Source: Chloracidobacterium thermophilum B (GTDB lineage: Bacteria; Acidobacteriota; Blastocatellia; Chloracidobacteriales; Chloracidobacteriaceae). From it: 64,000 nt of DNA. Made by a program: the position numbers and the translations under genes. The first letter of the stretch is position 1, and every line of letters starts with the position of its first letter. The notes below the pieces were generated by a model. That model had not been told where the DNA came from and searched no databases. It was given only the letters and a program-made list of their open reading frames with translations. The DNA is taken from the NCBI RefSeq assembly GCF_000226295.1, contig NC_016024.1, positions 1,719,501 to 1,783,500 of the forward strand. The letters run 5' to 3'. Below, piece after piece: positions 1,032 through 59,232 of the stretch.

Positions 1032-1081
1032 CTGCCAGCAGCCACTCCCACGGCACGGCCTCGGCCATACCCGCCGGTGGA

Positions 1082-1155
1082 TGCGCCCGGAGAGACTCGA
1101 ACTCCCAACCCTCAGATCCGAAGTCTGATGCTCTATCCAATTGAGCTACGGGCGC
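1082..1155 (-). tRNA. tRNA-Arg (anticodon UCG)
   Basis: Read on the minus strand, the 74 bases fold as a standard cloverleaf. The acceptor stem is GCGCCCG/CGGGCGC with discriminator A. The D arm has the usual TAGCTCAATTGGATAGAGCA layout and the anticodon stem is TCAGA/TCTGA around the loop CTTCGGA, giving anticodon TCG. The T loop is GTTCGAGTC. The three bases after the discriminator are TCC, so the CCA end is not encoded and must be added by a nucleotidyltransferase; one is encoded at 56569-57897. Confidence 0.95.
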
Positions 1156-1227
1156 AGACGCGGCCGGCGTTCTGCCGTATAGCGCGCCGCGGCCGGGCTT
1201 TTCAAGCGTCTGCCAAGGGAACGGTTT

Positions 1228-1941: not shown

Positions 1942-2065
1942 GGCGGCACCTCCCCACGAACGAAGTGGCCCACAAACGAAGTGGCGGTTGAATCAACCTC
2001 CCGTTTTCACCATACTGCGCCCACCGTACGAAAAGGGCCAGAAATGTTTGCGGGAAAAGCCAGCG

Positions 2066-3004: not shown

Positions 3005-3005
3005 C

Positions 3006-3030
3006 CGCCGGCCAAAGAGGTTTGCCGGCG
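3006..3030. terminator. Bidirectional hairpin between convergent genes
   Basis: CGCCGGC at 3006-3012 pairs perfectly with GCCGGCG at 3024-3030, and inner AAA/TTT pairs extend the stem after a one-base bulge. It sits exactly between the stops of the convergent ABC ATPase and MscS genes. There is no strong U-tract, so termination by this hairpin is inferred from position and symmetry. Confidence 0.5.
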
Positions 3031-3032
3031 CG

Positions 3033-4526: not shown

Positions 4527-4711
4527 TTATCTTCCGCCCAGCCTTTCACCGGGGAAGTCTGCGCCCCCGGTTGTAAAGGCCACGGGCCACGGCTGGCAAG
4601 CGCCACACCGCCACGGCAGCGCGATTTCCCCGGCCAGTTTGCGTGACTTTGACTCGCGCCGTCCTGCCGGACATCATCGGTCACTGACATTTTTCAACCG
4701 CTCACCCCACT

Positions 4712-5665
4712 ATGGTTACTTCCCGTTCGGCACTGGTCATCGGCTGTGGCATCTCCGGGCTGGCCTGCGCCCGGCGACTGCAAGCCGCCGGCTACCACGT
4801 CACCATCATCACCCGCGAACAGCCAAAATCCACAACTTCCAACGTCGCTGCGGCGCTCTGGTATCCCTACCGCTGCGCTCCCCGCGAAAAAGCCCTGCCA
4901 TGGTCGAAGGCCACCTTTGAAGAACTCCTGCGCCAGCACCGGGACGGCGTTCCGGGCGTCACCCCGACGACGTTCATCGAGCTTTTCGACCACGACCGCC
5001 CTACACCCTGGTGGGCTGAAGCCACCGGCGGCGTCACCCGTCTCACCGGAAACGACCTGCCGCCCGGTTATGCCGTCGGCTTTGCCGCCACCGTACCGGT
5101 TGTGGAAACACCACTGTATCTCCCCTACCTCGTGGAACAGTTCTCAGCGGCAGGCGGTACACTCCAGCTCGGCGAACTCACCAGTCTGGATGAGGCCTGC
5201 GCTGCGTACCCGCTGGTCATCAACTGCTCCGGTCTGGGGGCACGGACGCTCGCCAATGACCCCGAAGTGTTCCCGATCCGCGGGCAGGTGGTACGGGTTT
5301 CCAATCCCGGCGTACGGCGTGCCCTGACCGATGACGACGGCCCACGCCGCATCAGCTACACGATCCCACGCCAGACGGATGTCATTCTGGGCGGCACGGC
5401 GCTGCCCCACGTCTGGGATACCACTCCCGATGCAGCGACAACCGAAAGAATCTTGCGCCACTGCCGCGAGCTTGAGCCGGCGCTGGCCTCAGCACAGGTG
5501 CTTGAAGTGCGGGTCGGGCTGCGTCCGGGGCGGACGGCCGTCCGCCTGGAACGGGAACACCGTGGCGTGGGCGTCGTCATTCACAACTACGGCCACGGCG
5601 GCGCGGGCTTCACCCTCGCCTGGGGCTGTGCGGACGAGGTGCTTCACCTGGCGCGTGCAACGTAA
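4712..5665 (+). CDS. D-amino-acid oxidase (FAD-dependent, DAO family)
   Basis: This 317-residue flavoenzyme starts with the dinucleotide fold ALVIGCGISGLACARRL (residues ~7-23). It carries VINCSGLGARTL and the PIRGQVVRV segment typical of DAO. The C-terminus has GLRPGRTAVRLE, containing the arginine that binds substrate carboxylate, and HNYGHGGAGFTLAWGCA, a signature shared with eukaryotic D-amino-acid and D-aspartate oxidases. The expected reaction is oxidative deamination of a D-amino acid to the 2-oxo acid, ammonia and peroxide. Length is close to the usual 320-350 residues. There is no obvious peroxisome-like tag and no amino-acid racemase nearby. Substrate preference (neutral or acidic) is not predictable here. 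Confidence 0.85.
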   Translation: MVTSRSALVIGCGISGLACARRLQAAGYHVTIITREQPKSTTSNVAAALWYPYRCAPREKALPWSKATFEELLRQHRDGVPGVTPTTFIELFDHDRPTPWWAEATGGVTRLTGNDLPPGYAVGFAATVPVVETPLYLPYLVEQFSAAGGTLQLGELTSLDEACAAYPLVINCSGLGARTLANDPEVFPIRGQVVRVSNPGVRRALTDDDGPRRISYTIPRQTDVILGGTALPHVWDTTPDAATTERILRHCRELEPALASAQVLEVRVGLRPGRTAVRLEREHRGVGVVIHNYGHGGAGFTLAWGCADEVLHLARAT

Positions 5666-5714
5666 CCTGCCCCCGGCGGCGGGGCTTCACACCGGCTGAC
5701 ACGGCGCGTACGGC

Positions 5715-8700
5715 TTAGCGGATGGCATCGGCACAAACATTGGCATAGCGGCAAAGCTGACACCGCGCGCCGGGTTTGGCCTCGAAGTCGGTTTCGGCAA
5801 ACGTCCGAATCGCCACCAGCTCGCTGATGACCTTGTTGACCGCGTGGGCAGTGGCTTCCTTTCCGGCCTGATTGGCCGGCAGTTCAAACTTCTCATCCGG
5901 GGCCAGAAAGTGCAGCGTGGCGCGTACTTCCTTCACGTTGGGCGTCAGTTCCCACAGCGCCAGGGCGTAGATTTGCAACTGCAAGCGGTACCAGGCGACC
6001 TTTTCAGCCTTTTCCGCCGCAAAGCCTGGGGCTCCGGGCCGGGTCGCAAAGGCATTGGTCTTGAAATCCACCACGTGCGCCGTCACCCCCTGCCCGCCGG
6101 GACGGGGCGTGATCAGCACCTTGTCCATGGCTCCCGTGACCAATGCCGCGTCGCACCGGATGGTGAAGACGCGCTCACTCCAGACTTCGCAGCCGCTGGA
6201 CGGCTCCCGCGCCTGACGCTGTACCGCATCAATTTCCTTCCGAAAGTCGCTTTCGGCATATCGCTTTGCCAGCCACCACACGTCGTCTAGGATGGCCTCG
6301 TCATCAAGCATCACACCTTCCAGCCGTCCCTCCGCCCGCAGCGACGCCACGGCGCGTTGCAGGGCCGCCCGCAGCGCCCGGTTATCGGTATCTTCGGGTT
6401 GCAGGTCCTCGCACAGCCTGTGAACGATGAGACCACGTATGGCCGGCGAAAGCCGCGCCTGCCCCTCCGGGCGTTCGGTATCTTCGACGGGCCGGCGCTC
6501 CAGCCCGGCCTCGTCTTCCAGCGGGTCGAGAAAGCGCGCAAAGTAGTATTGGCGGGGGCAGTGGGCAAAGCTGTTCAACTGGGCCACCGAGTAGTGATAC
6601 TGCCCATGTATGGCTTTCGGGTCAGGCGCAACCGTTTCCAGTTGGTCCTCAAGTTGACGGATAAGTTCCCGGCGTGCCCGTTCGCGCTGCCTGGCATCGG
6701 CTGCCGCCTGCGCGACAAACGCCTCCCGGCTGGATGGTTCCGGGAGCGGGGTTGGGTCTGCATTCCCTGGCACGGCCGGGACGCTGTCCCGCAGGACGAG
6801 AATCCGGGCCGCGTCGAGTTGCACTTCCATCCCGGCAGGCCCCACGTCCGGGGGGGCGCTTCCGGCATCCTCTTCAGGCAGCAGCCACGGACTCAGCCAG
6901 TCCAGAAAACTCTGGACGGAACTGCCTTCCGCATTTCCGGTTTTGGGTCGCGCCGCGGCCGAGAGAATGAGGGCGTCCTGGGCGCGCGTCATGGCCACGT
7001 AAAGCTGGCGCATCCGCTCGAACTGCTCCCGGCGCTCAATCCTTTCCAGCGCCATGCTTTTCAGCGCCGTGGGCCGCCGCCGGCCCAGCATGTCGGGCAC
7101 ATCGAAGCCCAGGCCGCTGTTCCGCTCGAAAACGAACTTCCCGGCGCTTTGCCGCCAGCGGCGTTGCAGGTCCGGCAGGACGACAACCGGAAACTCCAGC
7201 CCCTTGGACTTGTGAATCGTCAGCAGCGCCACGGCGTCAAGACCAAGTTCAAGCTGGGCTTCGGCTTCGCGGGCATCAAGGCGGCGAAACTCGCGGATGT
7301 AGGCGACGAAATCCCGCAGCAGATGCGTCTCGCGGCTGGCAAAGCCCCGGGCCAGCGCCACCAGCTTGTCGAGATTGGACAACCGCTGTGGGCCGTCTTC
7401 GGCTCCGGCGCACACGATGTCATAGCCTGTCCGGCGAATAGCCTGCTCGATGAGGTCAGGCAGCGGCAGGCGGTTCCGTACGGCCAGCAACTCTTCCAGA
7501 ATTTCGACAGCCTCTTCCAGCAGGGCGCGCTGCTCACTGGCAAGTGCGGCCTGTTTCTGTTCGGCTTCGCGGCGCAGTTGGCTGTACAGCGAAACCCACT
7601 GGTCGGACGCATTGGCAGCCGTCCACCGCAGCCACAGCAGGGTTTCATCCGACAGCCCGAACAGCGGCGAGCGCAGTACACCGGCCAGCGCAATGTCATC
7701 CGCGCGATTGTCGAGAAATGCCAGCAGGTTCAGCAGGTCGGAGACCTCCGGGCGTCCGTAGAAGCCGTGTCCGGCGACGACATAGCACGGCACACCGGCC
7801 CGCCGCAGCGCGCGTTCGTAGGTCTTGACATCCGTCAGCGCCCCAAACAGGAAGGCAATGTCGCGGTAGGTCGGCGGCCGGGGCGTCCCCTGCGCGGTAT
7901 TGACCAGCGGGATTTGCTGCTCCACCAGCTCCCGTACGTACCCGGCCAGCCGTTCGGACTCGATGTCACGCAGCGATTCGTCGTACGGCGAGGGCTTCTC
8001 ATCGTCCTTCTTATCGTCCTTGGGCATTTCCGTGTAGAGAAAGACTACCGCTGGCTGCCCTGTGTTGAGCGCCGCGCGAAAGGCCACGCCCGGCTCGTGC
8101 GCCACGAATCCGCTCTGCCGCAGTTCGGCCGGCTGGCTTCCTTCCGGCGCGGCCATGATGCGGCTGAAGATGGCATTGAAAAAATCCACCAGGCGCGGGT
8201 CGCTGCGAAAGTTGACCTCCAGACGGAGATGCTGCCCCCCTTTTGCCGTCACCGAATCAATGGTTTCGTCAAAAACCTCGACTTCCGCCCCACGAAAGGC
8301 ATAGATGGATTGCTTGCGGTCGCCGACGAAGAAAAACGTCCGGTTGCCGCCGCTGGCAGGTTTGGACGTGAGAGCGTCGAGGCCGAGGTCTCCGAGAATA
8401 TCCCGTTGAAGGTGATTCGTGTCCTGAAACTCATCCACCAGAAAGTGCCGGTAGCGTTCCTGGACGCGCCGTCGGATGTCGGCGGACTCCAGCAACTCAC
8501 GCGCCCGCAGTTGCAGGTCCTCGAAATCGAGCGCCGCCGATTCGTTTTTGGCTTTGGTGTAGAGAAACTCCACGCTCCGCAACACTTGGAAGACCGCCTG
8601 CTGGTAGTCCCGCGCACAGACATCGAAATAGATGGCTTCGAGCTGTCCCCCGCCCTGGCTGCGGGTTCCGAGCGACTCCTGCAGCGGTTTGACCGCCTTG

Positions 8701-9566
8701 CCCACATTGCCGTGCGCAGCCGGCAGGGCTTCGCGCAACCGCGCCAGCGTCGCCAGAAATGCCGGCAGCGCGTCCACTGATGGAGCCGCCTGCTGCAACC
8801 CATTGGCTTCCCGGTTCCAGACAGCCAGAAACGCCTCGGCTGCTTCCAGGGTTTTGCCGGTCTTTTTGGCGCGCTTTTCCTCGTCAATGGCCGTTTTCAG
8901 CGCCGCCACATGCTGCTCTACGGACTGCAAGGCGGTTGTGTAATCAGCCAGCGTCAGAGTGTTCTGCGCGGTGATGCGCTCGGCTTCGTCCAGAGGAATA
9001 CCCAGGCTGCGGAGCTGGTTGAACACCTGCTTGAGTTCGGCAATGAGCGTTGCCCGGCCATAAGCCGCCACCAGTTCCGCCACCCGGTCATCACCCTGGT
9101 CAATCGCGCCGGTGACGGCCTGCTGCGCCGCCTGATCGAGCATGACGGCCGCCGTGTATTCATCAAGCGTGGTAAAGGTCGGATCAACTTTAGCAGCAAG
9201 GGGAAACTCGTGCAGCAGCCGCGAACAAAAGCTGTGAATCGTGCCGATGGCGGCGGCTTCAAGCTGGCGCTTGCGCTGCCGCCACAGAAGCTCTGCGCCT
9301 GTCCCCTGACAGGCCACAATCTGCTCCTCAAGGCGCTGCCGGATGCGCTCGCGCATTTCGTTGGCGGCCTTGTTCGTAAAGGTGATGGCTACGATGTTTT
9401 CGACGCCGACACCCGGCTGTTCGAGCAGGTGCAGGAAACGCTCGGTCAGCACGCGCGTCTTGCCGGCGCCCGGGCCGGCCGTGACGACCAGCGGGCGGTC
9501 AAGGACCTCGATGGCCGCCTGCTGGTCATCCGTCAAGCCTGTCGTGGGATTGAGTGTGACAACCAT
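5715..9566 (-). CDS. UvrD/AddA-type helicase-nuclease with Fe-S-type PD-(D/E)XK domain
   Basis: This 1283-residue protein has the SF1A helicase motifs in order: Walker A GPGAGKT at residues 31-37, AITFTNKAA, LVDEFQDTN, VGDRKQSIYAFRGA, LLTIHKSKGLEFPVVV and YVAMTRAQDAL. The C-terminus is a RecB-like nuclease with VVDFKTN as the catalytic D-x-K, bracketed by HCPRQYYF and a terminal CQLCRYANVC, the four-cysteine pattern that binds a 4Fe-4S cluster in AddB and Cas4 proteins. It probably processes double-strand breaks for recombination. The ATG at 9566 starts the family-like sequence; upstream codons are only a duplicated 7-residue unit. No AddB or RecC partner lies next to it. Confidence 0.88.
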   Translation of the reverse strand: MVVTLNPTTGLTDDQQAAIEVLDRPLVVTAGPGAGKTRVLTERFLHLLEQPGVGVENIVAITFTNKAANEMRERIRQRLEEQIVACQGTGAELLWRQRKRQLEAAAIGTIHSFCSRLLHEFPLAAKVDPTFTTLDEYTAAVMLDQAAQQAVTGAIDQGDDRVAELVAAYGRATLIAELKQVFNQLRSLGIPLDEAERITAQNTLTLADYTTALQSVEQHVAALKTAIDEEKRAKKTGKTLEAAEAFLAVWNREANGLQQAAPSVDALPAFLATLARLREALPAAHGNVGKAVKPLQESLGTRSQGGGQLEAIYFDVCARDYQQAVFQVLRSVEFLYTKAKNESAALDFEDLQLRARELLESADIRRRVQERYRHFLVDEFQDTNHLQRDILGDLGLDALTSKPASGGNRTFFFVGDRKQSIYAFRGAEVEVFDETIDSVTAKGGQHLRLEVNFRSDPRLVDFFNAIFSRIMAAPEGSQPAELRQSGFVAHEPGVAFRAALNTGQPAVVFLYTEMPKDDKKDDEKPSPYDESLRDIESERLAGYVRELVEQQIPLVNTAQGTPRPPTYRDIAFLFGALTDVKTYERALRRAGVPCYVVAGHGFYGRPEVSDLLNLLAFLDNRADDIALAGVLRSPLFGLSDETLLWLRWTAANASDQWVSLYSQLRREAEQKQAALASEQRALLEEAVEILEELLAVRNRLPLPDLIEQAIRRTGYDIVCAGAEDGPQRLSNLDKLVALARGFASRETHLLRDFVAYIREFRRLDAREAEAQLELGLDAVALLTIHKSKGLEFPVVVLPDLQRRWRQSAGKFVFERNSGLGFDVPDMLGRRRPTALKSMALERIERREQFERMRQLYVAMTRAQDALILSAAARPKTGNAEGSSVQSFLDWLSPWLLPEEDAGSAPPDVGPAGMEVQLDAARILVLRDSVPAVPGNADPTPLPEPSSREAFVAQAAADARQRERARRELIRQLEDQLETVAPDPKAIHGQYHYSVAQLNSFAHCPRQYYFARFLDPLEDEAGLERRPVEDTERPEGQARLSPAIRGLIVHRLCEDLQPEDTDNRALRAALQRAVASLRAEGRLEGVMLDDEAILDDVWWLAKRYAESDFRKEIDAVQRQAREPSSGCEVWSERVFTIRCDAALVTGAMDKVLITPRPGGQGVTAHVVDFKTNAFATRPGAPGFAAEKAEKVAWYRLQLQIYALALWELTPNVKEVRATLHFLAPDEKFELPANQAGKEATAHAVNKVISELVAIRTFAETDFEAKPGARCQLCRYANVCADAIR

Positions 9567-9572
9567 CGCTTT

Positions 9573-9614
9573 CACCTGAAAAACCAATACCGGCACCTGA
9601 AAAACCAATGCCGG
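9573..9614. repeat. 21-bp tandem duplication at the 5' end of the helicase-nuclease gene
   Basis: Two adjacent 21-base units beginning CACCTGAAAAACCAAT differ at one base (A versus G). The unit length is seven codons, so the duplication keeps the helicase-nuclease frame open upstream of its likely ATG. It lies in the spacer between this gene and the divergent E1 alpha gene. Confidence 0.85.
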
Positions 9615-9636
9615 GACGGCGCGCCGAAAACAACCG

Positions 9637-9666
9637 TTCGCCGGGCCGAAAGGATTAGGCTATAGT
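9637..9666 (+). promoter_or_regulatory. Possible sigma-70-like promoter for the E1 alpha gene
   Basis: TTCGCC at 9637-9642 and TATAGT at 9661-9666 are separated by 18 bases, about 40 bases before the start codon at 9705. The -10 element is good and the -35 weak. This is inferred from motif and position only. Confidence 0.35.
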
Positions 9667-9704
9667 CCGGCGTTTCATTTCATACTCCGTCCTACTCCCC
9701 TGCT

Positions 9705-10718
9705 ATGTCACCTGAAGTTGTGGAATCACTGCCGGCCACCGTACCGCACCCGTCCCTTTCACGGGAACAACAGCACGAAATTTACCACTACCTCAAGCTC
9801 ACCCGGTTGCTCGAAGAGCGGCTCGTCAACCTGTACCGCCAGACGAAAGTTGTTGGCGGGCTGTATCGTTCGCTGGGTCAGGAAGCCACGGCCGTCGGGA
9901 GCGCCTACGCACTGGACAAGTCACACAACGACATGATTGCCCCGCTCATTCGTGACCTTGGAGCGATGCTGGTCATAGGCGCTACGCCACGGGAACTGCT
10001 CCTGCAATACATGGCCAAGCGCGACAGCCCCACCCGTGGGCGCGACCTGCAGATTCACTTTGCAGATTTACGGCGCGGCTTCATCGGTCCCATTTCACAC
10101 CTGGGCGACATGCTGCCGGTGATGTGCGGCATTGCGTTGGGCTCCCGTCTGCGGCGCGAATCGCGCGTCTGTCTGGTCTATATGGGCGATGGCGCTTCCT
10201 CGACCGGCGCGTTTGCCGAAGGCATGAACTTCGCCGCTGTGCAGCGGCTTCCCGTGGTCGTCATCGTCGAAAACAACGGCTACGCTTACTCAACGCCAAC
10301 CAGCCGCCAGATGGCCGTCGAGCGCATTGTGGACAAAGCCGTGGGTTTTGGCGTCCGGGGTGAACGGGTTGACGGAAACGACGTTCTCGCTGTGTACGAT
10401 GTCACACGGCGGGCTGTCGAGCACGCCCGTGCCGGCGGCGGTGTCACGCTCATCGAGGCCGTCACTTTTCGGATGAAAGGCCACGCCGAGCACGACGACC
10501 AACGCTACGTGCCGAAAGAACTGCTGGCGGCGTGGGCCGCCAAAGACCCTCTGCAACGCTATGAGCGGTATCTGCTCGAAACCGGACTGGCGACGCCGGA
10601 CGAACTGGAAGCCATCACGCAGCGGATTTCCCGGCAACTCGATGACGACGTAGCCTTTGCGGAAGCCAATCCCATGCCCGAACCGGCTTCGGCGCTGCTC
10701 GATGTCTATGCGTCCTGA
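9705..10718 (+). CDS. 2-oxoacid dehydrogenase E1 component, alpha subunit
   Basis: The 337-residue product is the alpha chain of a thiamine-diphosphate-dependent 2-oxoacid dehydrogenase (pyruvate or branched-chain type). The ThDP-binding motif begins GDGASSTGAFAEGMNFAA and ends VENNGYAYSTP. The conserved GPISHLGDMLPVMCGIA segment and the phosphorylation-loop-like FRMKGHAEHDD are also present. It decarboxylates the oxo acid and passes the acyl group to an E2 lipoyl domain. Normally the beta subunit gene follows directly; here a ThyX-like gene follows after 27 bases, so the beta, E2 and E3 partners must be encoded elsewhere. The DDQRYVPKEL sequence after the HAEHDD loop resembles branched-chain or pyruvate enzymes about equally. 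Confidence 0.88.
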   Translation: MSPEVVESLPATVPHPSLSREQQHEIYHYLKLTRLLEERLVNLYRQTKVVGGLYRSLGQEATAVGSAYALDKSHNDMIAPLIRDLGAMLVIGATPRELLLQYMAKRDSPTRGRDLQIHFADLRRGFIGPISHLGDMLPVMCGIALGSRLRRESRVCLVYMGDGASSTGAFAEGMNFAAVQRLPVVVIVENNGYAYSTPTSRQMAVERIVDKAVGFGVRGERVDGNDVLAVYDVTRRAVEHARAGGGVTLIEAVTFRMKGHAEHDDQRYVPKELLAAWAAKDPLQRYERYLLETGLATPDELEAITQRISRQLDDDVAFAEANPMPEPASALLDVYAS

Positions 10719-27841: not shown

Positions 27842-28504
27842 TCATCCGGGTAAGCTGGTGGGCAGGTCCGTTGTTTGGGCAGGGGACGCTTTGGCCGTGA
27901 TGCGGAGTTCGGCCAGCGCCGCCGAAAGCACCCGTACCGACGAAACGAGCAGCAGAAGCACCAGCCCGCTGGCCACCACGACATCTGGCCACGCCGCCCC
28001 TGTCAGCCACACCAGTGCGGCCGCCACCAGCACCGCCACATTCCCCGCCACATCGTTCCGGGAACAGGCCCAGACGGAACTCATGTTGATGTCTTCCTGG
28101 CGGTGCTGCCACAGAAGCCACAGGCAGGCGCCATTGGCGGCGAGTCCGAGCAGACTGAAGACGCCCATGACCTCAAACAACGGCACGCCCGGATGGAAGA
28201 GCCGGTGGACGATTTGCACCACAACCCCTGCGGCGGCGGCGAAGATGAGTCCACCTTTGAACAGGGCGACGCGCGCCTTGGCGGCCCGGTCACGGGAAAC
28301 CACGTAGAGGCTCAGTCCGTAGGTCAGCGCATCGCCCAGGTTGTCCAGGCTGTCCGCCAGCAGGGCCGTCGAACGGCCATACCACGCCGCACCGACTATC
28401 ACGCCAAACATGAGCGCGTTGATGCCGAGCGTCAGCCACAGCGTACGCCGTTGCCGCGCAGAGCATGGACTGAACGAACTTTCGTGGTGGCAGCAGCTTC
28501 CCAT
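27842..28504 (-). CDS. Cation diffusion facilitator (CDF) family transporter
   Basis: The 220-residue protein has an N-terminal Cys/His cluster (GSCCHHE), then about six transmembrane segments. Metal-site-like motifs are ADSLDNLGDALTYG (D-x-x-x-D in helix 2) and CSRNDVAGN in helix 5. This subfamily lacks the long cytoplasmic C-terminal domain of larger CDF proteins. It exports divalent metal ions (zinc, cobalt, cadmium or iron; specificity not predictable) in exchange for protons. The first 78 codons and 66 bases upstream are duplicated at 32590-32889. Its original upstream neighbour was most likely the ArsA-like gene now at 32845-33969, so the island may have changed its transcription. Confidence 0.88.
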   Translation of the reverse strand: MGSCCHHESSFSPCSARQRRTLWLTLGINALMFGVIVGAAWYGRSTALLADSLDNLGDALTYGLSLYVVSRDRAAKARVALFKGGLIFAAAAGVVVQIVHRLFHPGVPLFEVMGVFSLLGLAANGACLWLLWQHRQEDINMSSVWACSRNDVAGNVAVLVAAALVWLTGAAWPDVVVASGLVLLLLVSSVRVLSAALAELRITAKASPAQTTDLPTSLPG

Positions 28505-28570
28505 GGCAGCCTGTCTCCCGCGCCGTCAGGCAAAGGTGATCGTCAGGGTGTCACCACTGTAGTCAGTGCT
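28271..28570. repeat. Left copy of 300-bp direct repeat flanking the helicase island
   Basis: This stretch aligns without gaps to 32590-32889 (offset 4319) with roughly 20-25 mismatches by eye. It holds codons 1-78 of the CDF gene, the 21-base spacer, and the last 14 codons plus stop of the ArsA-like gene. Homology stops abruptly at both ends. Confidence 0.92.
28526..28570 (-). pseudogene. ArsA-like ATPase gene fragment (last 14 codons)
   Basis: On the minus strand this reads S-T-D-Y-S-G-D-T-L-T-I-T-F-A-stop, matching the C-terminus of the intact ArsA-like protein at 32845-33969 except for its first two residues. Upstream of it the sequence is unrelated island DNA, so this is a remnant left by the duplication. 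Confidence 0.85.
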
Positions 28571-28853
28571 ATACGATAGCAAAGTCTTTATCCGGTCTGC
28601 TCGAGCAAGTGGGAGGCGAGGTGCCACGGGTCAGCGGTAAGGCACCTACGATGCCAAAGCGGTTCACGCTCCGACCAGCACGCGGCAGTCCAAGGCGGCG
28701 ATTTCCCTTGGGGAAGGTGCCATCCCATGGGGACTACCTCAACACCTTCCCCTATCTGGTACGCCTATCTAGTACGCCACAGTCCATCCAGGGAGGCGAA
28801 AGAGGGCAAATTGTGCCTGCTACGTGGATCAGGAGTGAGAAAAAGAGTAAGTC
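28571..28853. other. Left island junction, no gene seen
   Basis: This 283-base stretch runs between the left repeat and the helicase gene. It probably holds the helicase promoter. I see no integrase, transposase or inverted-repeat end. A short open frame crosses it but has no family-like sequence or good start. Confidence 0.5.
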
Positions 28854-31800
28854 ATGCCAAAATCATCAGGAATTAGCTGTTTGTGTATCAGTATTTCTAA
28901 TCGTCCACCAATTCCGATTATGTACGCAAAGCTCTTCAGATTCTGGCAAACCATTGAAGCACTTTCGCCGCAGGGCGCCGATAAGCCTGATGCCTCAAAC
29001 AGGAGCTTCCCTATCTACCGGGTCGAGGACGGAAACCTGCCACCTTGGCTTGATTCATCGCATCTTCGTCGTCCCATTCTAGCCAATAAGGCCTGGCGCT
29101 ATTCGTTGCAGTGTGGACTTTTCGACAGCCTAAAACTGGCCGAGTTGTTGACCACAAGGATCAGTCAGCCTGACGACGTCCTCAATGAGAAACTGAAAGG
29201 CGGTGAAAGCCGGCTGTTTGATCTTGGCTTTGATGACTCTGGCATCCCGATTCCAGAAACGTTTGTGCTTTCGATGGCCTGTTGGGCATCCGGTCAGATT
29301 CTTCAGTTCAATGTTGACATTCTAGAGCAGGGTGGCCAGAACAATCTGGATGACGTCAAGGTGTACGATCACGTGTTGCCGATCAACAGCGGTTATAAGG
29401 GTTTCGACGCCCTGTCCGAGCGGCTGATTGGCTATGTGGCAAAGCAAGCGGCTGTGTTGCAGAAACAAAATCAGAAAGCAACGAAAGAATGGCTGGATCA
29501 TCTCGTCCGTTTCGTGGCTGACAAGTGCTACTTCCCCAAGCACCTTTTTTCTGACCAGCCTACTTATATCGCCAAATGCTTCCAGGTGAAGGTCGAGGGG
29601 AAAACCTCTGCCGGGAAACCCCAGGAAGGTAATGGCCAGCCTGGCGACAAAGCCGGGGATGCTGATGAGAGCAGCACAGCACAAAGCGACGACCTCATCG
29701 GCAAACCCGGCGACAAAGCCAAGGATGTCGTCGGGAGCAGCGCAGCGCAACGCAACGACCTCATCAACAGCTTTTACATCGGTGATCTCACTCTGCTGAA
29801 AAAGGCAGCAGAGACGGAAAACCTTGGCGAAGGCTTACAGGCCTTTCTTGCCCCTCACAACATCAGGCCCATCAATCTGCGCACGCCGGAAGGTGTCCGA
29901 ACTTCTCTGGAAATGCTTTCGCCCGAACGGATGCCTCGCGGGTGCTGGCCTTCCGATCATCCGCTGGTTTTCAGCCAGCAGCTCGCCGTCAATGAAATCT
30001 GGCGCAGGCTGGCAAAAGAACCGGGGCTTTTTGCCGTCAATGGCCCTCCAGGGACAGGGAAGACGACTCTGCTACGCGACATCGTGGCTGCGGTGATAGT
30101 AGAACGCGCCGCACATTTGGTCGAGGCGGTTAGGAAGAATCGCACATTTAGACAAGAGCAAAACCAAAAGATCGGCGACAGGCTGATTCCTTACTACCCG
30201 TTCGGAGACGCCGTAGCGGGGACTTCCATCGTTGTGGTCTCCGCAAACAACGGAGCAGTCGAGAACGTCTCCTTGGAGCTTCCGTCCATCAACAGTGTGC
30301 CGGATCGGGTGGAAGGGCGCTACTTCACGGAGCTTGCCACTGAGGTGCTCAGGGCGCAGGGGCAGAAAAGCGCCAGCGCGTGGGGGCTTCTTGCTGCCCG
30401 GTTGGGCAACAAGCAAAACCGGACCACGTTCCTTGACAAGTTCTGGTGGGCAGAACCCTGCGGCGCGGAAACCAAAGTCGGGCAGCCATGGAGCGGCGAG
30501 GGATTGCGTTGGCATCTCAACCAAATCAAGTGTGGCAGTCGCCAACCCTCGATGTCATTGGAAGACGCTATCGAGCGGTTCGTGCAGGCGCAACACAACG
30601 AGAAGAAAGCCAGACAGAAGCTGATCGACGCAGCAGACATTCCGAAGCAAATCCAGAAAAAACAGGAAACGTATGATAAAGCCTTGCTTGAACTACAACG
30701 ACTTGCTGACGAGGAGGCAGAGTCGCAGCACCTTGCGTATGAAATGGATAAGCGCATTCTCCTCCTTGACACAGAGAATAACAAGCTGGGGAGTCAAATA
30801 TGCGAAGTCGAGGAAAGACTCACCAAACATGATAACGAAAAGCCCGGGTTCCTGACTTGGCTGTTAACACTCGGTCGCTCGCATCGTGACTGGCGGAAAC
30901 GGAAAGAGATGATCGTCGCCGAACACGACAATCTTCTCAAAAAGCAAGGCCTTCTGATGCAGCACAAGAGGGATGCCGAAGCAATTCGTGACAAAGCACG
31001 TGCAACCCTCGCCAAACTTGCTCGACACAAAGCATCGAAACGTGCAATGGCGAACAACTTGTGCAAAGAGATTAGGGACTTGCAAAGAAAGCTGGCAAGC
31101 ACTAAAGCGGAATTGGGTAAGCACTGGGTCGATCAGAACTGTGATAATGATGCCCGAGAGAAGTCCTCTCCCTGGATGACCGAGGAGTGGCGTCTGGCAC
31201 GGGAAGCGCTTTTCCTGGCGGCACTTGACCTGCACAGGGCGTTTATCGAGAACAACGCCGACGAGATGATCACAAACCTCAATCTTGTCAGTGACTGGTT
31301 GAGCGGAAAATCCCTCCCAGAGCAGATGGCTCGCACGGCGCTCGATACACTGTGCCTCGTGACGCCCGTGATCTCGACAGCTTTTGCTTCTGTCCCAAGG
31401 ATGTTTGCCGACATCGGCCGGGAAGGGATCGGTTGGCTGCTGATTGATGAAGCTGGACAGGCTTTGCCCCAACACGCGGCAGGAGCTATCTGGCGGGCGA
31501 AACGCACGATCGTCGTAGGCGATCCCAACCAGCTTGAACCAGTCATCACGGTGCCTTCTTCTGTGGAGGAAGCACTTGCCGATCACTACAAGATCAAAAA
31601 GCCCTGGTGGCCGACGATGACATCGGTTCAACGCATGGCTGATCAAGCGACGGACATCGGCACATCGCTAGAAGACCCCCTTGGGGACAAACTTTGGGTG
31701 GGCTGTCCGCTGCGTGTGCACCGGCGCTGTGATGAACCGATGTTCTCGATCAGCAACCACATCGCTTATGGCGGGATGATGGTCTTTGGCAAACCTCCCT

Positions 31801-32306
31801 CGTCAGCATCCAATCTTCCCCCCAGTTGCTGGATCGATGTGCACGGTTCCAGAAACCAGCGCCACTGGATCGAAGAAGAGGGAGAGGTAGTCAACAGCTT
31901 GGTCTGTTTGCTGTTGAAGCAATTTGGCATCGAGCGTGAGGACATATTCCTTGTCTCACCCTTCAAGGACTGCGCCAGGAAGCTGTCCGAAATCGGACAG
32001 CAGTTTCGTCTCGATTCAAAAAAGGTGGGTACTGTGCATACCTCTCAGGGCAAGGAGGCTGATGTGGTTATTCTGGTGCTCGGCGGCGATCCGAGTAGAC
32101 CCGGAGCGAAAGACTGGGCCGCATCCAAGCCGAACCTGCTCAACGTGGCTGTAAGTCGCGCAAAGAAGCGTCTTTACGTGATTGGGAACGCCGCAGAATG
32201 GAAAAAGCGATGCTTTTTCAAGCAAGCAGTTGAAAAGTTAGGCACAAAGACTTTTCAAGAGTTCGTGAGTCAAGTCCAAAGTGGGTCAGATAAAAAAGCC
32301 CCTTGA
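28854..32306 (+). CDS. Large SF1 (Upf1/DNA2-like) helicase of a genomic island
   Basis: The 1150-residue protein has a poorly characterised N-terminal ~380 residues, then the helicase core. Walker A is GPPGTGKTTLLRDIV. A long coiled coil (~residues 580-770, rich in Glu, Lys, Leu and Gln) is inserted in the core. Then follow LLIDEAGQALPQHAAGA, VVGDPNQLEPV (motif III), GTVHTSQGKEADVVILVLGG (motif V) and LLNVAVSRAKKRLYVIG (motif VI). The DEAG-Q motif and the coiled-coil insertion place it with Upf1-like SF1B helicases. No nuclease motif is evident. The start at 28854 follows a weak AAAAAGAG; Met23 (28920) is an alternative. Base composition looks lower in GC than its neighbours. Large lone helicases in islands are often anti-phage, which is inference here. 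Confidence 0.85.
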   Translation: MPKSSGISCLCISISNRPPIPIMYAKLFRFWQTIEALSPQGADKPDASNRSFPIYRVEDGNLPPWLDSSHLRRPILANKAWRYSLQCGLFDSLKLAELLTTRISQPDDVLNEKLKGGESRLFDLGFDDSGIPIPETFVLSMACWASGQILQFNVDILEQGGQNNLDDVKVYDHVLPINSGYKGFDALSERLIGYVAKQAAVLQKQNQKATKEWLDHLVRFVADKCYFPKHLFSDQPTYIAKCFQVKVEGKTSAGKPQEGNGQPGDKAGDADESSTAQSDDLIGKPGDKAKDVVGSSAAQRNDLINSFYIGDLTLLKKAAETENLGEGLQAFLAPHNIRPINLRTPEGVRTSLEMLSPERMPRGCWPSDHPLVFSQQLAVNEIWRRLAKEPGLFAVNGPPGTGKTTLLRDIVAAVIVERAAHLVEAVRKNRTFRQEQNQKIGDRLIPYYPFGDAVAGTSIVVVSANNGAVENVSLELPSINSVPDRVEGRYFTELATEVLRAQGQKSASAWGLLAARLGNKQNRTTFLDKFWWAEPCGAETKVGQPWSGEGLRWHLNQIKCGSRQPSMSLEDAIERFVQAQHNEKKARQKLIDAADIPKQIQKKQETYDKALLELQRLADEEAESQHLAYEMDKRILLLDTENNKLGSQICEVEERLTKHDNEKPGFLTWLLTLGRSHRDWRKRKEMIVAEHDNLLKKQGLLMQHKRDAEAIRDKARATLAKLARHKASKRAMANNLCKEIRDLQRKLASTKAELGKHWVDQNCDNDAREKSSPWMTEEWRLAREALFLAALDLHRAFIENNADEMITNLNLVSDWLSGKSLPEQMARTALDTLCLVTPVISTAFASVPRMFADIGREGIGWLLIDEAGQALPQHAAGAIWRAKRTIVVGDPNQLEPVITVPSSVEEALADHYKIKKPWWPTMTSVQRMADQATDIGTSLEDPLGDKLWVGCPLRVHRRCDEPMFSISNHIAYGGMMVFGKPPSSASNLPPSCWIDVHGSRNQRHWIEEEGEVVNSLVCLLLKQFGIEREDIFLVSPFKDCARKLSEIGQQFRLDSKKVGTVHTSQGKEADVVILVLGGDPSRPGAKDWAASKPNLLNVAVSRAKKRLYVIGNAAEWKKRCFFKQAVEKLGTKTFQEFVSQVQSGSDKKAP
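29643..29774 (+). repeat. 66-bp tandem duplication inside the helicase gene
   Basis: Two units starting at 29643 and 29709 both begin GGCGACAAAGCC and encode the related 22-residue segments G-D-K-A-x-D...S-S-x-A-Q-x-x-D-L-I. The period keeps frame. The units have diverged at several positions, so the duplication is not recent. Confidence 0.85.
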
Positions 32307-32589
32307 TCATCAGGCAGACTGGATCGCGTGCCTGAGAGCACTGTGGCTTACATCGCCCTGCCGTGCATGGCGGTGCCCACTTCCCGGCAATGCCTGCTTT
32401 GTTGAAGCAGGTCGTCAGAGTGTTGTGATTGACCAAGCGGTCATAGTCTGGTCAGTTCGTCACCGGGTAGCGACACTTCCCCCTCCATCGTCGCGGACAC
32501 TTTTGGTCTCGTTGTTATTGTCATTCTCATACGCTCGTTGCTTCAGCAGACCCGATTGACGGAAAATTATTCACCAGTACCACATGGCG
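32307..32589. other. Right island junction, no gene seen
   Basis: Downstream of the helicase stop there is a small hairpin (CCTGCTT 32393-32399 / AAGCAGG 32405-32411) without a U-tract and no recognisable coding sequence. The boundary with the right repeat is at 32590. No transposase remnant was seen. Confidence 0.5.
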
Positions 32590-32823
32590 GCGCGCCTTGG
32601 CTATGCGGTCACGGGAAACCACGTAGAGGCTCAGTCCGTAGGTCAGCGCATCGCCCAGGTTGTCCAGGCTGTCCGCCAGCAGGGCCATCGAACGGCCATA
32701 CCACGCCGCACCGACTATCACGCCAAACATGAGCGCGTTGATGCCGAGCGTCAGCCACAGCGTACGCCGTTGCCGCGCGGAACAGGGGTTGAACGCACCT
32801 TCGTCGTGGCAGCAGTTTCCCAT
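32590..32823 (-). pseudogene. Truncated CDF transporter gene (first 78 codons)
   Basis: Reading MGNCCHDEGAFNPCSARQ and onward, it tracks the intact CDF protein at 27842-28504 through the DSLDNLGD metal motif and then runs into unrelated sequence after codon ~78. The open frame continues to 32527 by chance. With only about two membrane segments it cannot be a working transporter. Confidence 0.9.
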
Positions 32824-32889
32824 AGCAGCCTGTCTCCCGCACCGTCAGGCAAAGGTGATCGTCAGGGTATCGCCGCTGTAATCGGCGCC
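32590..32889. repeat. Right copy of 300-bp direct repeat flanking the helicase island
   Basis: Partner of 28271-28570. This copy joins the intact ArsA-like gene to a truncated CDF gene. Mismatches cluster in the CDF start region and in the ArsA C-terminal codons, several of them silent. Confidence 0.92.
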
Positions 32890-33969
32890 AACGGCTTCCT
32901 TGCTCCAGACTTCGGTTGGCAGCGGGATATTCCGCTTGAAATGACCAATTTCAAGCACAAGCTCACCGGCCCGGGTAACAAGGTCAAGGCGATCCAGCTC
33001 CAGGTTGGGAAGCCTGAGTTTGAGAACGTATTGACCATCGGTGGTGTTTTCCAGGGTCATCAGTGGCGCTGGCAATGCCCGCTCAAGTGGATCGCGCGTT
33101 TGGAAAAGATGTTCGGCCAGCGCCGTCAATGCTGGCAGCCCAATCGGCTCTTCGGTTTGGTCAGGGACTTCAACCACCGGCAACCCGGCAGACTTTTGCG
33201 CCAAGACATCCAATGCAGCTTTTTGGGCCGGCACTTCTTTGCGGACACGGTTGACGAAGATACTTTCCACCGGACATTCGTACAGGTGATGGTACGTCAC
33301 CAGACGAAGGCCGTCCGTCACCGCCAGCCGTTCCGGGCGCGTCACCAGACGGTGCGAGGTCACTTCCGGGTTGGTGAGCGCCGCCCGCATTTCGCCTACC
33401 CGGCGGCTCACTTCCGGGAGCATGTCCATCGGATTCCGGCTGGGGAAAAGGGACTGCATCACGGGTGTCGCCACCAGCGCCAACCGCCGATACCAGGTCT
33501 CAATGCTCGAAAGTATCCACTTGAGACCTTCCGGGCCGGCCAACAGGGTCATCATCCCGGCCGTGGGCGGTGTATCCACCACCACGACCTCATACTGCCC
33601 TTCGCGGCTGGCCCGCCAGATTTCCGTCATCGCCGTCAGTTCTTCGAGCGCCGGGAACAGGAGCACTTCCTGCACATAAGCCGACTTGCCCGTGCCGATT
33701 CCGCGCAGAATGGTGGCCACGTAGTCCTGTACTTCGTGCCACTGGCTACGCAACTCGGCCAGGGCGCTGACTTCACGCGCCTCCAGGTTGGGAGCAACCG
33801 AAGTAGGTGTATGCCCAACCGTCGTGCCAAGTACATCGCTGAGGTTATGTCCGGCGTTGACGCTCATCAGGAGCGTTTTGTGCCCCCGGGCGGCACAGGC
33901 CACGGCCGTGGCGGCTGACAGCGTCGTTTTTCCAACGCCCCCTTTGCCAAAGTACGTCACAATCCGCAT
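32845..33969 (-). CDS. ArsA/GET3-like ATPase with C-terminal Hsp20-like domain
   Basis: The 374-residue protein opens with the deviant Walker A GKGGVGKTT at residues 8-16, preceded by MRIVTYF. VVVVDTPPTAGMM is the switch II-like segment. The C-terminal ~80 residues (YVLKLRLPNLELDRLDLVTRAGELVLEIGHFKRNIPLP) form the Hsp20-like beta-sandwich known from bacterial ArsA homologues. These ATPases may target membrane proteins or bind metalloids; the arsenite-binding cysteines of true ArsA are not obvious here. The start at 33969 places the P-loop at the normal position. The next gene downstream was once the CDF transporter (stop to start 21 bases), implying an ancestral two-gene unit. Confidence 0.85.
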   Translation of the reverse strand: MRIVTYFGKGGVGKTTLSAATAVACAARGHKTLLMSVNAGHNLSDVLGTTVGHTPTSVAPNLEAREVSALAELRSQWHEVQDYVATILRGIGTGKSAYVQEVLLFPALEELTAMTEIWRASREGQYEVVVVDTPPTAGMMTLLAGPEGLKWILSSIETWYRRLALVATPVMQSLFPSRNPMDMLPEVSRRVGEMRAALTNPEVTSHRLVTRPERLAVTDGLRLVTYHHLYECPVESIFVNRVRKEVPAQKAALDVLAQKSAGLPVVEVPDQTEEPIGLPALTALAEHLFQTRDPLERALPAPLMTLENTTDGQYVLKLRLPNLELDRLDLVTRAGELVLEIGHFKRNIPLPTEVWSKEAVGADYSGDTLTITFA

Positions 33970-34243
33970 ACACTCGGAACCTGCTTGTACGGTGAGCTTT
34001 TCGTCGCTGGCGGCAACGATATGTGGTTTGGGACTGAAACGCCACACGTCAGTGCAAGCTTTCAACTGCCTGATAGGCTTTTCTCAGCAGGTGCAAGTAC
34101 CCTGCACAGTCGGGCTTGCCGCCTGACGTGGTTTTTTGCGGCTTGCAGAGAGTGCCCGGACAGCATCTCCCGAACCAAAGAGCGCATTGTCCACCGTTTC
34201 AGGCTAAAGTCTTTTCTTCAACCTTGCCACGCAACCAACATGG

Positions 34244-53622: not shown

Positions 53623-54726
53623 ATGCTGAGCTGGTTGTGGCTAATGACAGGCTTGTTTGCGTGCCTCCCTATTATTGGGCTGGTCTTGGTGTTGATCCTT
53701 CGAACAGTTGAGGCGCGGCGTGCCGCACAGCAAAGACAGGACTATGAGCGGTATCGTGCACAGCTCCAAGACCTGTATGAGGGCCTAGACCAGGCTCAGT
53801 CGCCTGACAGTATCCTCCCGCTAGCCCAACTGTTCAAAGCTACCACTCGCGACGAAGTGGCAGCCCTCAAACACGTCATCCTTGAGGCCTATGGCACAGC
53901 ACCGGAGTCCACAAAAAAGGCACTTACTCTGCTGTACGAAAGCTTGGGATTTATCGCTGACGACATCCAGGTCATTCACAACGGCTCCTTGGAAGAGCGT
54001 TCGCGGGCCGCTTTCCGTCTTGGGTGGCTGCGGTATCTTCCTGCCCTCGACGCCCTTGAACGAGTTAGCAGACACAGTTCAACCGAATTGCGTTTGGTCG
54101 CGATCTGGGCACTGACAGAAATTGCCGATACCCGGTGCGTCAAACCCGTCGTTATTGCTCTTTCTGAAGCCAACGGCTGGCAGTTAATGCAAGCAGCCAA
54201 CCGCTTGTTGGGGATGCAGCGTGACCTGACTCTGCCTTTGATGGAACTTCTGGATTCGGCCGGAGGCATGCGTGAACGCCGGGAACGTATTATGATGACT
54301 GTCCTTGACCTCATCACTGACTTTGGAAACCGTGCCCAGAAGTACATCAACCCTATTGCTGGACGCCAAGCGGCACTGCGTTTACTGGAAAGCGATTCCG
54401 TCAATCTTCGCACCCGTGCCTTGCGCGCCCTGACAGCCCTTGGGGTCGAGTCTTCCCAAGAAATCGAAAGTATCCTGCGAGCACTCAAAGACAAAGACTG
54501 GGAGGTTCGTGCCGTAGCGGCCCGGGCAGTCGGCGATTTACAAATCCTGGCTGGAATATCGGCTCTCCAAGAAGCTGTAGGTGATCGGGCCTGGTGGGTT
54601 CGGCACAATGCAGCGTATGCCCTTAAAAAGTTGGGAGACGCTGGAGAAGTCGTTCTTCTTCAACTCCTGCAAAGTGATGACCGCTTCACTCGTGAAACTG
54701 TTACCCAAGTTCTACAGGAAAGTTGA
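53623..54726 (+). CDS. Membrane-anchored HEAT-repeat protein
   Basis: The 367-residue protein has one N-terminal transmembrane helix (WLWLMTGLFACLPIIGLVLVLIL), a coiled linker (RRAAQQRQDYERYRAQLQD) and then HEAT/PBS-lyase-like helical repeats. Examples are RSRAAFRLGWLRYLPALDALERVSRHSSTELRLVAIWALTEI and KDKDWEVRAVAARAVGDLQILAGISALQEAVGDRAWWVRHNAAYALKKLGD. Such repeats bind proteins, and no catalytic residues are visible. It is likely a scaffold on the inner face of the membrane. Base composition is already lower in GC than in the upstream genes. It precedes deoC by 29 bases. Confidence 0.82.
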   Translation: MLSWLWLMTGLFACLPIIGLVLVLILRTVEARRAAQQRQDYERYRAQLQDLYEGLDQAQSPDSILPLAQLFKATTRDEVAALKHVILEAYGTAPESTKKALTLLYESLGFIADDIQVIHNGSLEERSRAAFRLGWLRYLPALDALERVSRHSSTELRLVAIWALTEIADTRCVKPVVIALSEANGWQLMQAANRLLGMQRDLTLPLMELLDSAGGMRERRERIMMTVLDLITDFGNRAQKYINPIAGRQAALRLLESDSVNLRTRALRALTALGVESSQEIESILRALKDKDWEVRAVAARAVGDLQILAGISALQEAVGDRAWWVRHNAAYALKKLGDAGEVVLLQLLQSDDRFTRETVTQVLQES

Positions 54727-54755
54727 CTCCTGCCAAAAGGACCACTTGATAACCA

Positions 54756-55424
54756 ATGTTACTTGCAGGCCTTATTGATCACACTTGGCTTAAGCCTGAA
54801 GCTACCAAAGCTGACATTACACGGGTCTGCCACGAAGCACGAGCCCACGGCTTTGCTGCCGTGTGTGTCAATCCTGTTTGGGTTTCCTATGCTGCCCAAA
54901 TACTGACTGGCTGTCATACGGTTGTCTGCACCGTCATCGGCTTTCCTCTGGGGGCAACGACCACTAAAGTCAAAGCCTATGAAGCACAGCAGGCTCTTGA
55001 GAACGGTGCCCGTGAAATAGACATGGTTATCGCCATCGGAAAGCTCAAGGACCAAGATTTTTCATTTGTTGAGACTGACATTCAGGCTGTGGTCAATGTT
55101 ACACATCAGTATCGGGCCCTGTGCAAGGTCATTATTGAAACTGCATTGCTTACCGATGAAGAAAAGGTCCAAGCCTGCAAAATCATTCAGTCGACTGGAG
55201 CAGACTTTGTCAAAACATCAACAGGATTTAGCCAAGGAGGAGCAACAGTAAGTGATGTTATATTACTTCGCCGAAGTGTAGGCGAAGCCATCGGAGTGAA
55301 AGCTGCTGGTGGTATTCGCAGCCGGGAAATAGCTGAACAACTGATTGCTGCTGGGGCGACCCGTATTGGAACAAGTAACGGTATAGCTATCCTTCAAGAT
55401 ACCAAGGTATCCTCCACATACTAA
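54756..55424 (+). CDS. deoC: Deoxyribose-phosphate aldolase
   Basis: The 222-residue class I aldolase splits 2-deoxyribose-5-phosphate to glyceraldehyde-3-phosphate and acetaldehyde. Diagnostic motifs are LIDHTWLKPEAT at the start, VCTVIGFPLGATTTKVKAYEA, GAREIDMVI, and the Schiff-base lysine in FVKTSTGF. The AAGGIRS glycine-rich phosphate site is also present. Length is standard. It is not in a nucleoside catabolic operon here. A weak, distant AAAGGA precedes the start. It converges on the small secreted-protein gene with three bases between stops. Confidence 0.94.
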   Translation: MLLAGLIDHTWLKPEATKADITRVCHEARAHGFAAVCVNPVWVSYAAQILTGCHTVVCTVIGFPLGATTTKVKAYEAQQALENGAREIDMVIAIGKLKDQDFSFVETDIQAVVNVTHQYRALCKVIIETALLTDEEKVQACKIIQSTGADFVKTSTGFSQGGATVSDVILLRRSVGEAIGVKAAGGIRSREIAEQLIAAGATRIGTSNGIAILQDTKVSSTY

Positions 55425-55427
55425 GCG

Positions 55428-55826
55428 CTACTCGGCCGTCTTGTCTCTGAGCAAGGTAACACGAGTAAGCTGGGTAGGTAGAGACTCACGATAGACCACT
55501 TCCAAACGTTGCCCCGGTTTGATGTCAGCCAAGCGAATTTCTTTGCTACGACCTAGAATTGGAAAGCCTTTTTCCGTCCCGATCTTAGCATTCCGTGAAA
55601 CACGGTAGGTGAGTTCATCCCCTGTGATCTCATCAGTTGCTTCAATTGTGTACAGATCGGGATTGACTGACTTTACAATCAGGATTGTCTTTAGATTGCG
55701 CTTTACCTCACTTGCTGTGCGCGGTGCCCTTCCAACACCAACACTCCCTTGTCCAAGTAGGGGCACAGGAGAAACTGAGAGAAAGAGACTTACCAAAATA
55801 ATCAAAGTGACTAAGGATAGTTTCAT
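55428..55826 (-). CDS. Small secreted protein of unknown function
   Basis: The 132-residue product has a signal peptide (MKLSLVTLIILVSLFLSVSPVPLLGQ) and a mature part rich in beta strands: KTILIVKSVNPDLYTIEATDEITGDELTYRVS and IRLADIKPGQRLEVVYRE. These suggest an OB-like or barrel fold of the kind that reads like a DUF5666-type domain, but I cannot name it. Its start is 39 bases from the divergent HAD phosphatase gene, so any promoters must overlap. Confidence 0.65.
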   Translation of the reverse strand: MKLSLVTLIILVSLFLSVSPVPLLGQGSVGVGRAPRTASEVKRNLKTILIVKSVNPDLYTIEATDEITGDELTYRVSRNAKIGTEKGFPILGRSKEIRLADIKPGQRLEVVYRESLPTQLTRVTLLRDKTAE

Positions 55827-55865
55827 TCTTTACCTCTCTGAAAGATTTTGAAGTTCAGTCTGACA

Positions 55866-56543
55866 ATGATAAAAGCTATTATATTTGATTTTGATGGGGT
55901 TATTGCTGACACGGAAGAACTTCACTTCAATTGCCTAAGAAGAATCCTGTCTGAGGAAGGAATTTGGATTGACCGGGAGATGTACAATGAAACCTACCTT
56001 GCTCTTGATGATAGAAGCTGTTTTAGAAAAGCTCTTTCAATAGCCAAGTTAAGAGAGATTCCACCTGAAAAACTTGAAGAATTTATTCATCGAAAAGCTA
56101 GATTACTCCAGTCTTGTCTCACAGAAGTTAAGCTTTTTCCTGGAATTGTCGAGTCAATCAAACAGTTCTCATCAGAAGTATTACTAGGTATTTGTTCAGG
56201 TGCGCTCCGTCAAGAAATTATGTTGGTTTTACAAAAACACTCTTTATTGGAGTATTTCACAGCCATCATTACGGCTGAAGATGTCGAGAATAGCAAACCC
56301 TCGCCAGAAGGCTACTTATTAGCTTTGCAACAGTTACAAGAGAAGTCAGGCATCCCCATCTCAGCTTTGGAGTGTATTGTTATAGAGGATTCAGTAGCTG
56401 GTATAGCAGCCGCTAAAGCAGCATCTATGTACTGTGTTGCTATAACCAATTCCTATCCCAAAGAGAAACTTTATCAAGCCGATCTTATACTTGAGTCAAT
56501 TACAGAATTTTCTCTGAGAAAACTTCAGAATTACCCCAAATAG
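55866..56543 (+). CDS. HAD-family phosphatase/phosphomutase (beta-phosphoglucomutase-like)
   Basis: The 225-residue protein begins with HAD motif I IIFDFDGVIADTEELHF. Motif II is LLGICSGALRQEI, and motif IV is CIVIEDSVAGIAAAKAASM. The helical cap between motifs I and II is typical of class I HAD enzymes that dephosphorylate or isomerise sugar phosphates (GPH, beta-PGM, YcjU-like). The ATG at 55866 is chosen as the one directly before the family start. The sequence is very AT-rich compared with the first 54 kb. Substrate cannot be deduced. Confidence 0.88.
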   Translation: MIKAIIFDFDGVIADTEELHFNCLRRILSEEGIWIDREMYNETYLALDDRSCFRKALSIAKLREIPPEKLEEFIHRKARLLQSCLTEVKLFPGIVESIKQFSSEVLLGICSGALRQEIMLVLQKHSLLEYFTAIITAEDVENSKPSPEGYLLALQQLQEKSGIPISALECIVIEDSVAGIAAAKAASMYCVAITNSYPKEKLYQADLILESITEFSLRKLQNYPK

Positions 56544-56568
56544 ACCGACATTCCTTCCTTTTTCCAGT

Positions 56569-59230: not shown

Positions 59231-59232
59231 TG

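Follow-up and report, generated by a model that had tools for sequence, protein, structure and literature searches.

A bacterial chromosome can gain foreign DNA between direct repeats of its own sequence. In one study of conjugation in Escherichia coli, a polymerase chain reaction product diagnostic of a partial lacZ duplication was reported for 56 of 60 clones, and the 14 clones that were sequenced carried lacZ duplications of 109–950 bp; the authors ascribe the duplications to a circular molecule, part of whose homology had been lost, that integrated by a single crossing-over (PMC3240628). The 13-kb microcin H47 island of E. coli lies between imperfect direct repeats, 148 and 144 bp long and 76% identical, and its excision and integration are reported, also in a recA-deficient background, for an island described as having no recombinase genes of its own (PMC3191183). 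Here we describe an insertion in Chloracidobacterium thermophilum B in which a 4,019-bp island that carries a superfamily 1 (SF1) helicase gene lies between two 300-bp direct repeats, each of which is a copy of the junction between the ArsA and CDF genes of the host. The genome has two contigs (3,695,372 bases in total), and the locus is near 1.75 Mb of contig 1; coordinates are positions in the window, that is, the 64,000-nt stretch analyzed (contig 1, positions 1,719,501–1,783,500). The locus resembles the Campbell-type integrants described in E. coli (PMC3240628) in that foreign DNA is flanked by few-hundred-bp direct repeats of the host and needs no recombinase of its own; it differs in that it is natural, its repeat copies are divergent, there is no selected marker, and a circle would have to be inferred. 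It resembles the microcin H47 island as reported (PMC3191183) in that it is a small chromosomal island with extensive imperfect direct repeats and no recombinase aboard; it differs in that its repeats are pieces of two host genes and in that any excision of it would be hypothetical, whereas excision was shown for the microcin island.

We compared the genome under study (G000) with six other Chloracidobacterium genomes (G001–G006). In the five congeners in which the junction can be compared (G001, G003, G004, G005, and G006; G002 is left out of this count because it has no CDF match), the ArsA-CDF junction is uninterrupted, with a gap of 1–53 bases and no insert, and the island DNA has no match at an e-value of 1e−3 in any of the six. 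Thus, the insertion broke up a conserved gene pair and left 300 bp of host DNA in two copies; the host bases on both sides are kept, and, as in Campbell-type integrants, the insert lies between direct repeats of its own target. The insertion is therefore real and well-bounded, with an unusual 300-bp duplication, and the five insert-free junctions together with the absence of the island DNA from the six congeners indicate, most simply, that it occurred in this lineage after the split from G004. A single-gene helicase island that split an ArsA-CDF pair is what a sequence-only reading of the window had proposed. That reading also named a contrary case, the helicase at this site without flanking repeats; we looked for it in the congeners and did not see it, and the sole congener with a helicase relative, G006, has it at another locus.

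On the minus strand, the order is intact ArsA, a 21-base spacer, a CDF fragment, the island, the 3′ end of ArsA, a 21-base spacer, and intact CDF. The intact CDF gene (27842–28504, minus strand) encodes a 220-residue cation efflux protein (Pfam Cation_efflux, e-value 1.2e−16), which has a 96% identical relative in G004. Repeat copy 1 (28271–28570) contains the first 78 codons of this gene, the spacer, and the last 15 ArsA codons including the stop; the latter are an orphan ArsA 3′ end (28526–28570, minus strand) severed at the island, which reads STDYSGDTLTITFA before its stop codon vs GADYSGDTLTITFA before the stop codon of the intact gene. The island (28571–32589) holds one long gene only, that for the helicase (28854–32306, plus strand; 1150 residues). 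Repeat copy 2 (32590–32889, delimited by alignment to copy 1) contains the dead 5′ fragment of CDF, the spacer, and the end of the intact ArsA gene; the dead fragment is the beginning of a truncated 98-residue frame in the list of open reading frames (ORFs) (32527–32823, minus strand), of which the first 78 codons are CDF and the remainder is derived from the island. The intact ArsA/GET3-like ATPase gene (32845–34065, minus strand; Pfam ArsA_ATPase, e-value 7.2e−52) has an HSP20-like tail (ArsA_HSP20, e-value 1.1e−15), and, as read by eye, it may begin at the internal ATG at 33969. ArsA and CDF lie close together in the same direction in the five congeners and probably form one transcript; here ArsA reads into the dead CDF fragment, the island follows with its helicase gene in the opposite orientation, and intact CDF is located beyond it.

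At an offset of 4319, the two copies form a gapless alignment in which 277 of 300 positions are identical (23 mismatches), and identity in the sequence that flanks them is at background. The sequence-only reading had anticipated this pair and its layout well: the gapless offset, a by-eye estimate of about 20–25 mismatches, the composition of each copy (the 5′ part of CDF, the 21-base spacer, and the last ArsA codons), and an intact CDF on the left separated by about 4 kb from an intact ArsA on the right. The same pair is the top family in a direct-repeat search of the region; when the window was compared with itself using BLAST, the pair was retrieved with an e-value of 1.7e−124, and just one other repeat (72 bases) was found at or below 1e−10. 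In a genome-wide search, with 40 of 45 first-look candidates scored, the repeat is present at these two places alone.

The mismatches are not distributed evenly: four form a block (28283–28286), one is at 28368, and the remaining 18 are in the last 111 bases (28460–28570). When the 16 edge bases that hold the block are excluded, one of the remaining 19 mismatches is located in the first 173 of 284 bases (P = 2.3e−7 for one or fewer under uniform placement). At the left edge of copy 2 (32590–32605), 12 bases match and are followed by four consecutive differences (copy 1, GGCC; copy 2, TATG) that may be a scar of the joining. Apart from this block, the dead CDF piece in copy 2 has one substitution over 173 nt; its remaining 45 nt, the counterpart of which is live in copy 1, have nine differences that we read as a difference between alleles and not as a sign of age. 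Because those 173 bases differ at one position and the helicase frame is intact, the insertion may be recent. Of the seven differences in the orphan ArsA end, five fall at third codon positions, the pattern to be expected had both alleles been coding as they diverged.

The divergence between the copies is that expected of two alleles from different species, and two orthologous alleles are what they seem to be. Over 28287–28570 (284 sites; the 16 edge bases, which include the block of four, are omitted), copy 1 and copy 2 differ at 19 sites, but copy 1 differs from G004, the nearest congener, at 14 and copy 2 from G004 at 11. A duplication of the host junction after the split from G004 should make the distance between the copies the smallest, so that history is disfavored. 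Using four outgroups and the rule that the odd state must equal that of at least three of the four, there are three informative sites, none of which unites the two copies: site 28486 unites copy 2 with G004, and sites 28553 and 28562 unite copy 1 with G004. Two orthologous alleles are favored because the copies differ more from one another than either does from G004 and because no site groups them. All three sites agree if the two junctions are reciprocal hybrids from one crossover within 28487–28549; the incoming junction would then be the one nearer to G004.

Our preferred explanation, in which we have moderate confidence, is that the helicase island was gained when the host recombined homologously with junction-carrying DNA from another lineage of the genus. 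The donor DNA would have been an MkoC-like helicase gene joined to the 300-bp ArsA-CDF junction of another Chloracidobacterium lineage; it would have entered the cell, perhaps by transformation, and the host's own homologous recombination, with no recombinase supplied by the insert, would have placed it at the resident junction. In the simplest form, the donor was probably a 4,319-bp circle (the island and one junction copy) integrated by one crossover, although a linear donor fragment joined end to end would act alike. The product would be intact CDF, a hybrid junction, the island, a second hybrid junction, and intact ArsA, which is the arrangement observed. Inferences in this account are that the donor was related, that it was a circle, that one crossover took place, that the DNA was taken up by transformation, and what the helicase does. 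ComEC- and DprA-family genes are present in seven of seven Chloracidobacterium genomes; the same searches also match in 10 and 11, respectively, of 14 control genomes, including that of E. coli, so transformation is simply a plausible route.

Several observations weigh against this explanation. There are just three informative sites; the approximately unbiased (AU) test keeps the tree in which the copies are sisters (p = 0.167), and, when hybrid sequences are used, it likewise rejects none of the three topologies. The orphan ArsA end of copy 1 has two first-position changes adjoining its edge, as would follow if a dead copy had drifted. Our searches gave no donor genome and no circle, the model does not account for the 300-bp extent of the junction on the circle, and at least one of the two joints of such a circle must be illegitimate.

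The alternative that survives best, although we consider it unlikely, is a duplication in place, that is, the event that inserted the island copied the host's own 300-bp junction (by bridging or strand-switching repair between sister chromosomes or by a very long staggered break), and the copies later diverged with partial gene conversion. In its favor, the geometry matches a target duplication (no host bases lost, 300 bp present twice), and the sister tree is not rejected by the AU test. There is also precedent: in Streptococcus pneumoniae, bridging of sister chromatids by transforming DNA is reported to yield duplications (PMC3784515). These transformation merodiploids are like the present locus in that incoming DNA sets off a homology-driven partial duplication; however, as modeled in that report they are large and bounded by pre-existing repeats, whereas here 300 bp are duplicated around a foreign insert. 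Duplication in place is at odds with copies that are further apart from one another than either is from another species and with the lack of any informative site that unites them. In addition, the dead CDF has barely decayed over 173 nt and yet has nine differences in the other 45, a contrast that an old duplication could explain only with the addition of a later conversion tract. Copy 2 vs G004 has 8 differences in the fast 111 bases and 3 in the slow 173, which does not differ significantly from the 18 and 1 of copy 1 vs copy 2 (Fisher p = 0.13). Because the between-species comparison has a like contrast, gene conversion is possible but is rejected as a necessary step. Of the two mechanisms that the sequence-only reading had offered, single-crossover integration thus fits better (the divergence is allele-like, and one crossover reconciles the sites) and an old tandem duplication fits less well; no tree is rejected.

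Somewhat less probable again, and in our view doubtful, is that the whole of junction, island, and junction pre-existed in a donor strain and arrived as linear DNA through two crossovers, located within the repeats or outside them; the founding duplication would then have occurred elsewhere. The same hybrid copies would result, the ComEC- and DprA-family genes found in all seven genomes would serve this route equally, and the pangenome of the genus is reported to be open (PMC8245765). However, the arrangement is present in none of the six congeners, we found no other genome that has it, and the question of its origin is shifted without being answered. An assembly chimera, in which the sequence of a minor strain was joined to the chromosome through the 173-bp near-identical stretch, might be suspected because the copies resemble alleles of different strains and the 2011 reference for strain B is described as a pyrosequenced consensus of a non-clonal enrichment (PMC8245765), but it is improbable because the genome of a clonal isolate (PacBio) is reported in the same source to be nearly completely colinear with that reference, save some indels near 300 kbp of chromosome 1 (this locus is near 1.75 Mb), and because a minor strain of this kind would already have to carry the island flanked by two pieces of the junction. 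We consider it very unlikely that the island is a recombinase-free, one-gene defense unit that moves among hot-spring Chloracidobacterium as a 4.3-kb circle, with the borrowed ArsA-CDF junction as its attachment site and RecA to take it in and out.

The island contains no recognizable transposase or integrase, as the sequence-only reading had noticed: the helicase has AAA/helicase domains only (Pfam), and six other island ORFs, including those of both non-coding flanks, have no Pfam match at 1e−3 (the scan covered ORFs other than the small ones that overlap the helicase gene). A transposon, a group II intron, or another RNA element is rejected because a search of the genome for further copies of the island flanks gave just chance matches of 18–35 bases; the three Rfam matches in 28000–33200 are all below the gathering score (e-values of at least 2). 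A phage origin of the island is rejected because its DNA has no match to phages at an e-value of 0.01, and one scan of viral contigs with six peptide patterns gave no match. Among plasmid records, 597 match part of the island (595 of these at 60–80% identity), and coverage reaches 80% in none; a circle outside the sequenced records may nevertheless exist. A plasmid origin of the non-coding flanks is rejected because the flanks have no match to plasmids. In a scan for promoters and terminators, sites were no commoner than in shuffled sequences. The same reading had called the island foreign-looking, which holds mildly: its GC content is lower than that of the window (0.541 vs 0.585), and it ranks 39th among 240 windows of its size.

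The helicase is UPF1-like and MkoC-like (Pfam AAA_11/AAA_12; PADLOC MkoC, e-value 2.5e−71, profile positions 244–944 of 1136) and has the SF1 motifs GPPGTGKT, DEAGQ, GDPNQ, QGKEAD, and NVAVSRA. Translation probably starts at the ATG at 28920, close to the point at which alignment to plasmid homologues begins. The N-terminal domain (~225 residues) is its own and has no assigned fold; a single-sequence structure model of the N-terminal 360 residues gave no usable fold (mean predicted local distance difference test score, 35). Between this domain and the helicase core, the gene contains two tandem 66-bp units that are 79% alike (29634–29765). In the published listing, a PLD-like domain is given for Mokosh I and II (PMC10952713). 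The helicase portion of the present protein matches the profile of MkoC, the type II component, and may work like the MkoC helicase core; however, no PLD-like nuclease domain was found (no Pfam match at 1e−3; MkoC profile unmatched past position 944), so we do not class the locus as Mokosh, and its separate N-terminal domain also sets it apart; an anti-phage function like that of MkoC would be putative. Another counterpart is the helicase WP_166689849.1 of a Klebsiella conjugative plasmid (annotated as a DEAD/DEAH box helicase), which is 42.5% identical over 96% of the query and is likewise one gene with AAA/helicase domains only and no PLD in Pfam; it differs in that it adjoins plasmid transfer genes instead of being located in a chromosome between repeats.

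In the host's own phylum, relatives of the helicase were found in five of 162 genomes of the class at 1e−20 (this genome included) and in three of 396 genomes sampled over the phylum at 1e−60, counts that are lower bounds because just some of the candidates in each genome were scored. Among plasmids, 633 of 72,556 records match at 1e−30 (524 over at least 80% of the query), of which 548 are from Klebsiella and 575 are typed conjugative, in a collection that is rich in clinical isolates; among the matches listed, identities are mostly 41–44% over 96% of the query. One plasmid relative adjoins a TraG-type transfer gene, and another adjoins ccdAB. At the protein level, there are matches in four of 50,697 phage records, of which three are strong (e-values from 4e−107 to 4e−85; 29–33% identity over 70–72%), so phage-borne relatives exist; they have no bearing on this insertion. 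From the MkoC-like core and the plasmid and phage relatives, the helicase is probably involved in defense against phages or other invading nucleic acid.

Two further relatives are found in the genus. One is on contig 2 of the same genome (locus L038, G000:C2:868000–886000; 7040–10127, minus strand) as overlapping genes for 245 and 788 residues, the flanks of which are ~170–350 bp apart in G004, G005, and G006 (172 bp in G004, from BLAST matches). The other is in G006 (locus L039, G006:C10:1–18000; 5160–8459, plus strand), between genes for an M16 peptidase and an ABC-transporter ATPase (by eye, pstB-like); these two genes are separated by 149 bp in G000 and G004 and by ~1.9 kb in G005. Neither insertion has flanking direct repeats of at least 30 bases; the 300-bp duplication is therefore not a property of the gene family, and a repeated insertion mechanism for MkoC-like genes is rejected. 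Adjoining the second relative, L038 also encodes a 1578-residue DruE-like helicase (57–4793, plus strand; PADLOC DruE, e-value 7e−67) and a 636-residue DNA/RNA non-specific endonuclease with proprotein-convertase P domains (4911–6821, minus strand), a possible defense neighborhood.

Elsewhere in the window, the ArsA segment 32996–33265 diverges much faster than the rest of the gene in all congener pairs (51–82% identity in 90-column windows). The G000–G004 identity of 68–82% in windows near 33010–33279 had suggested replacement by a foreign ArsA allele, but this was rejected; because all congener pairs drop there, the decrease is variation in rate. The GC content of 54001–64000 is 0.41–0.49; the genes tested in that segment (biotin carboxylase, RNA polymerase alpha, ribosomal protein S4, and an M24 peptidase) are ordinary housekeeping genes, so the low value is not a sign of foreign DNA.

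Both the mechanism and the gene are of known kinds, so the locus is a good example and not a new kind of system; literature searches covering Chloracidobacterium, Mokosh, illegitimate recombination, and integrase-free islands turned up analogues, and none of the titles among the matches listed concerns this locus. Set against five uninterrupted sites, it is a clear natural instance of a single accessory gene gained without a recognizable integrase or transposase, and its 300-bp scar seems to record two alleles. Homology-driven gain thereby becomes testable in a genus of thermophilic phototrophs. MkoC-like helicases that lack the nuclease domain occur at three loci in this genus and also on many conjugative plasmids, which makes a test of their function worthwhile.

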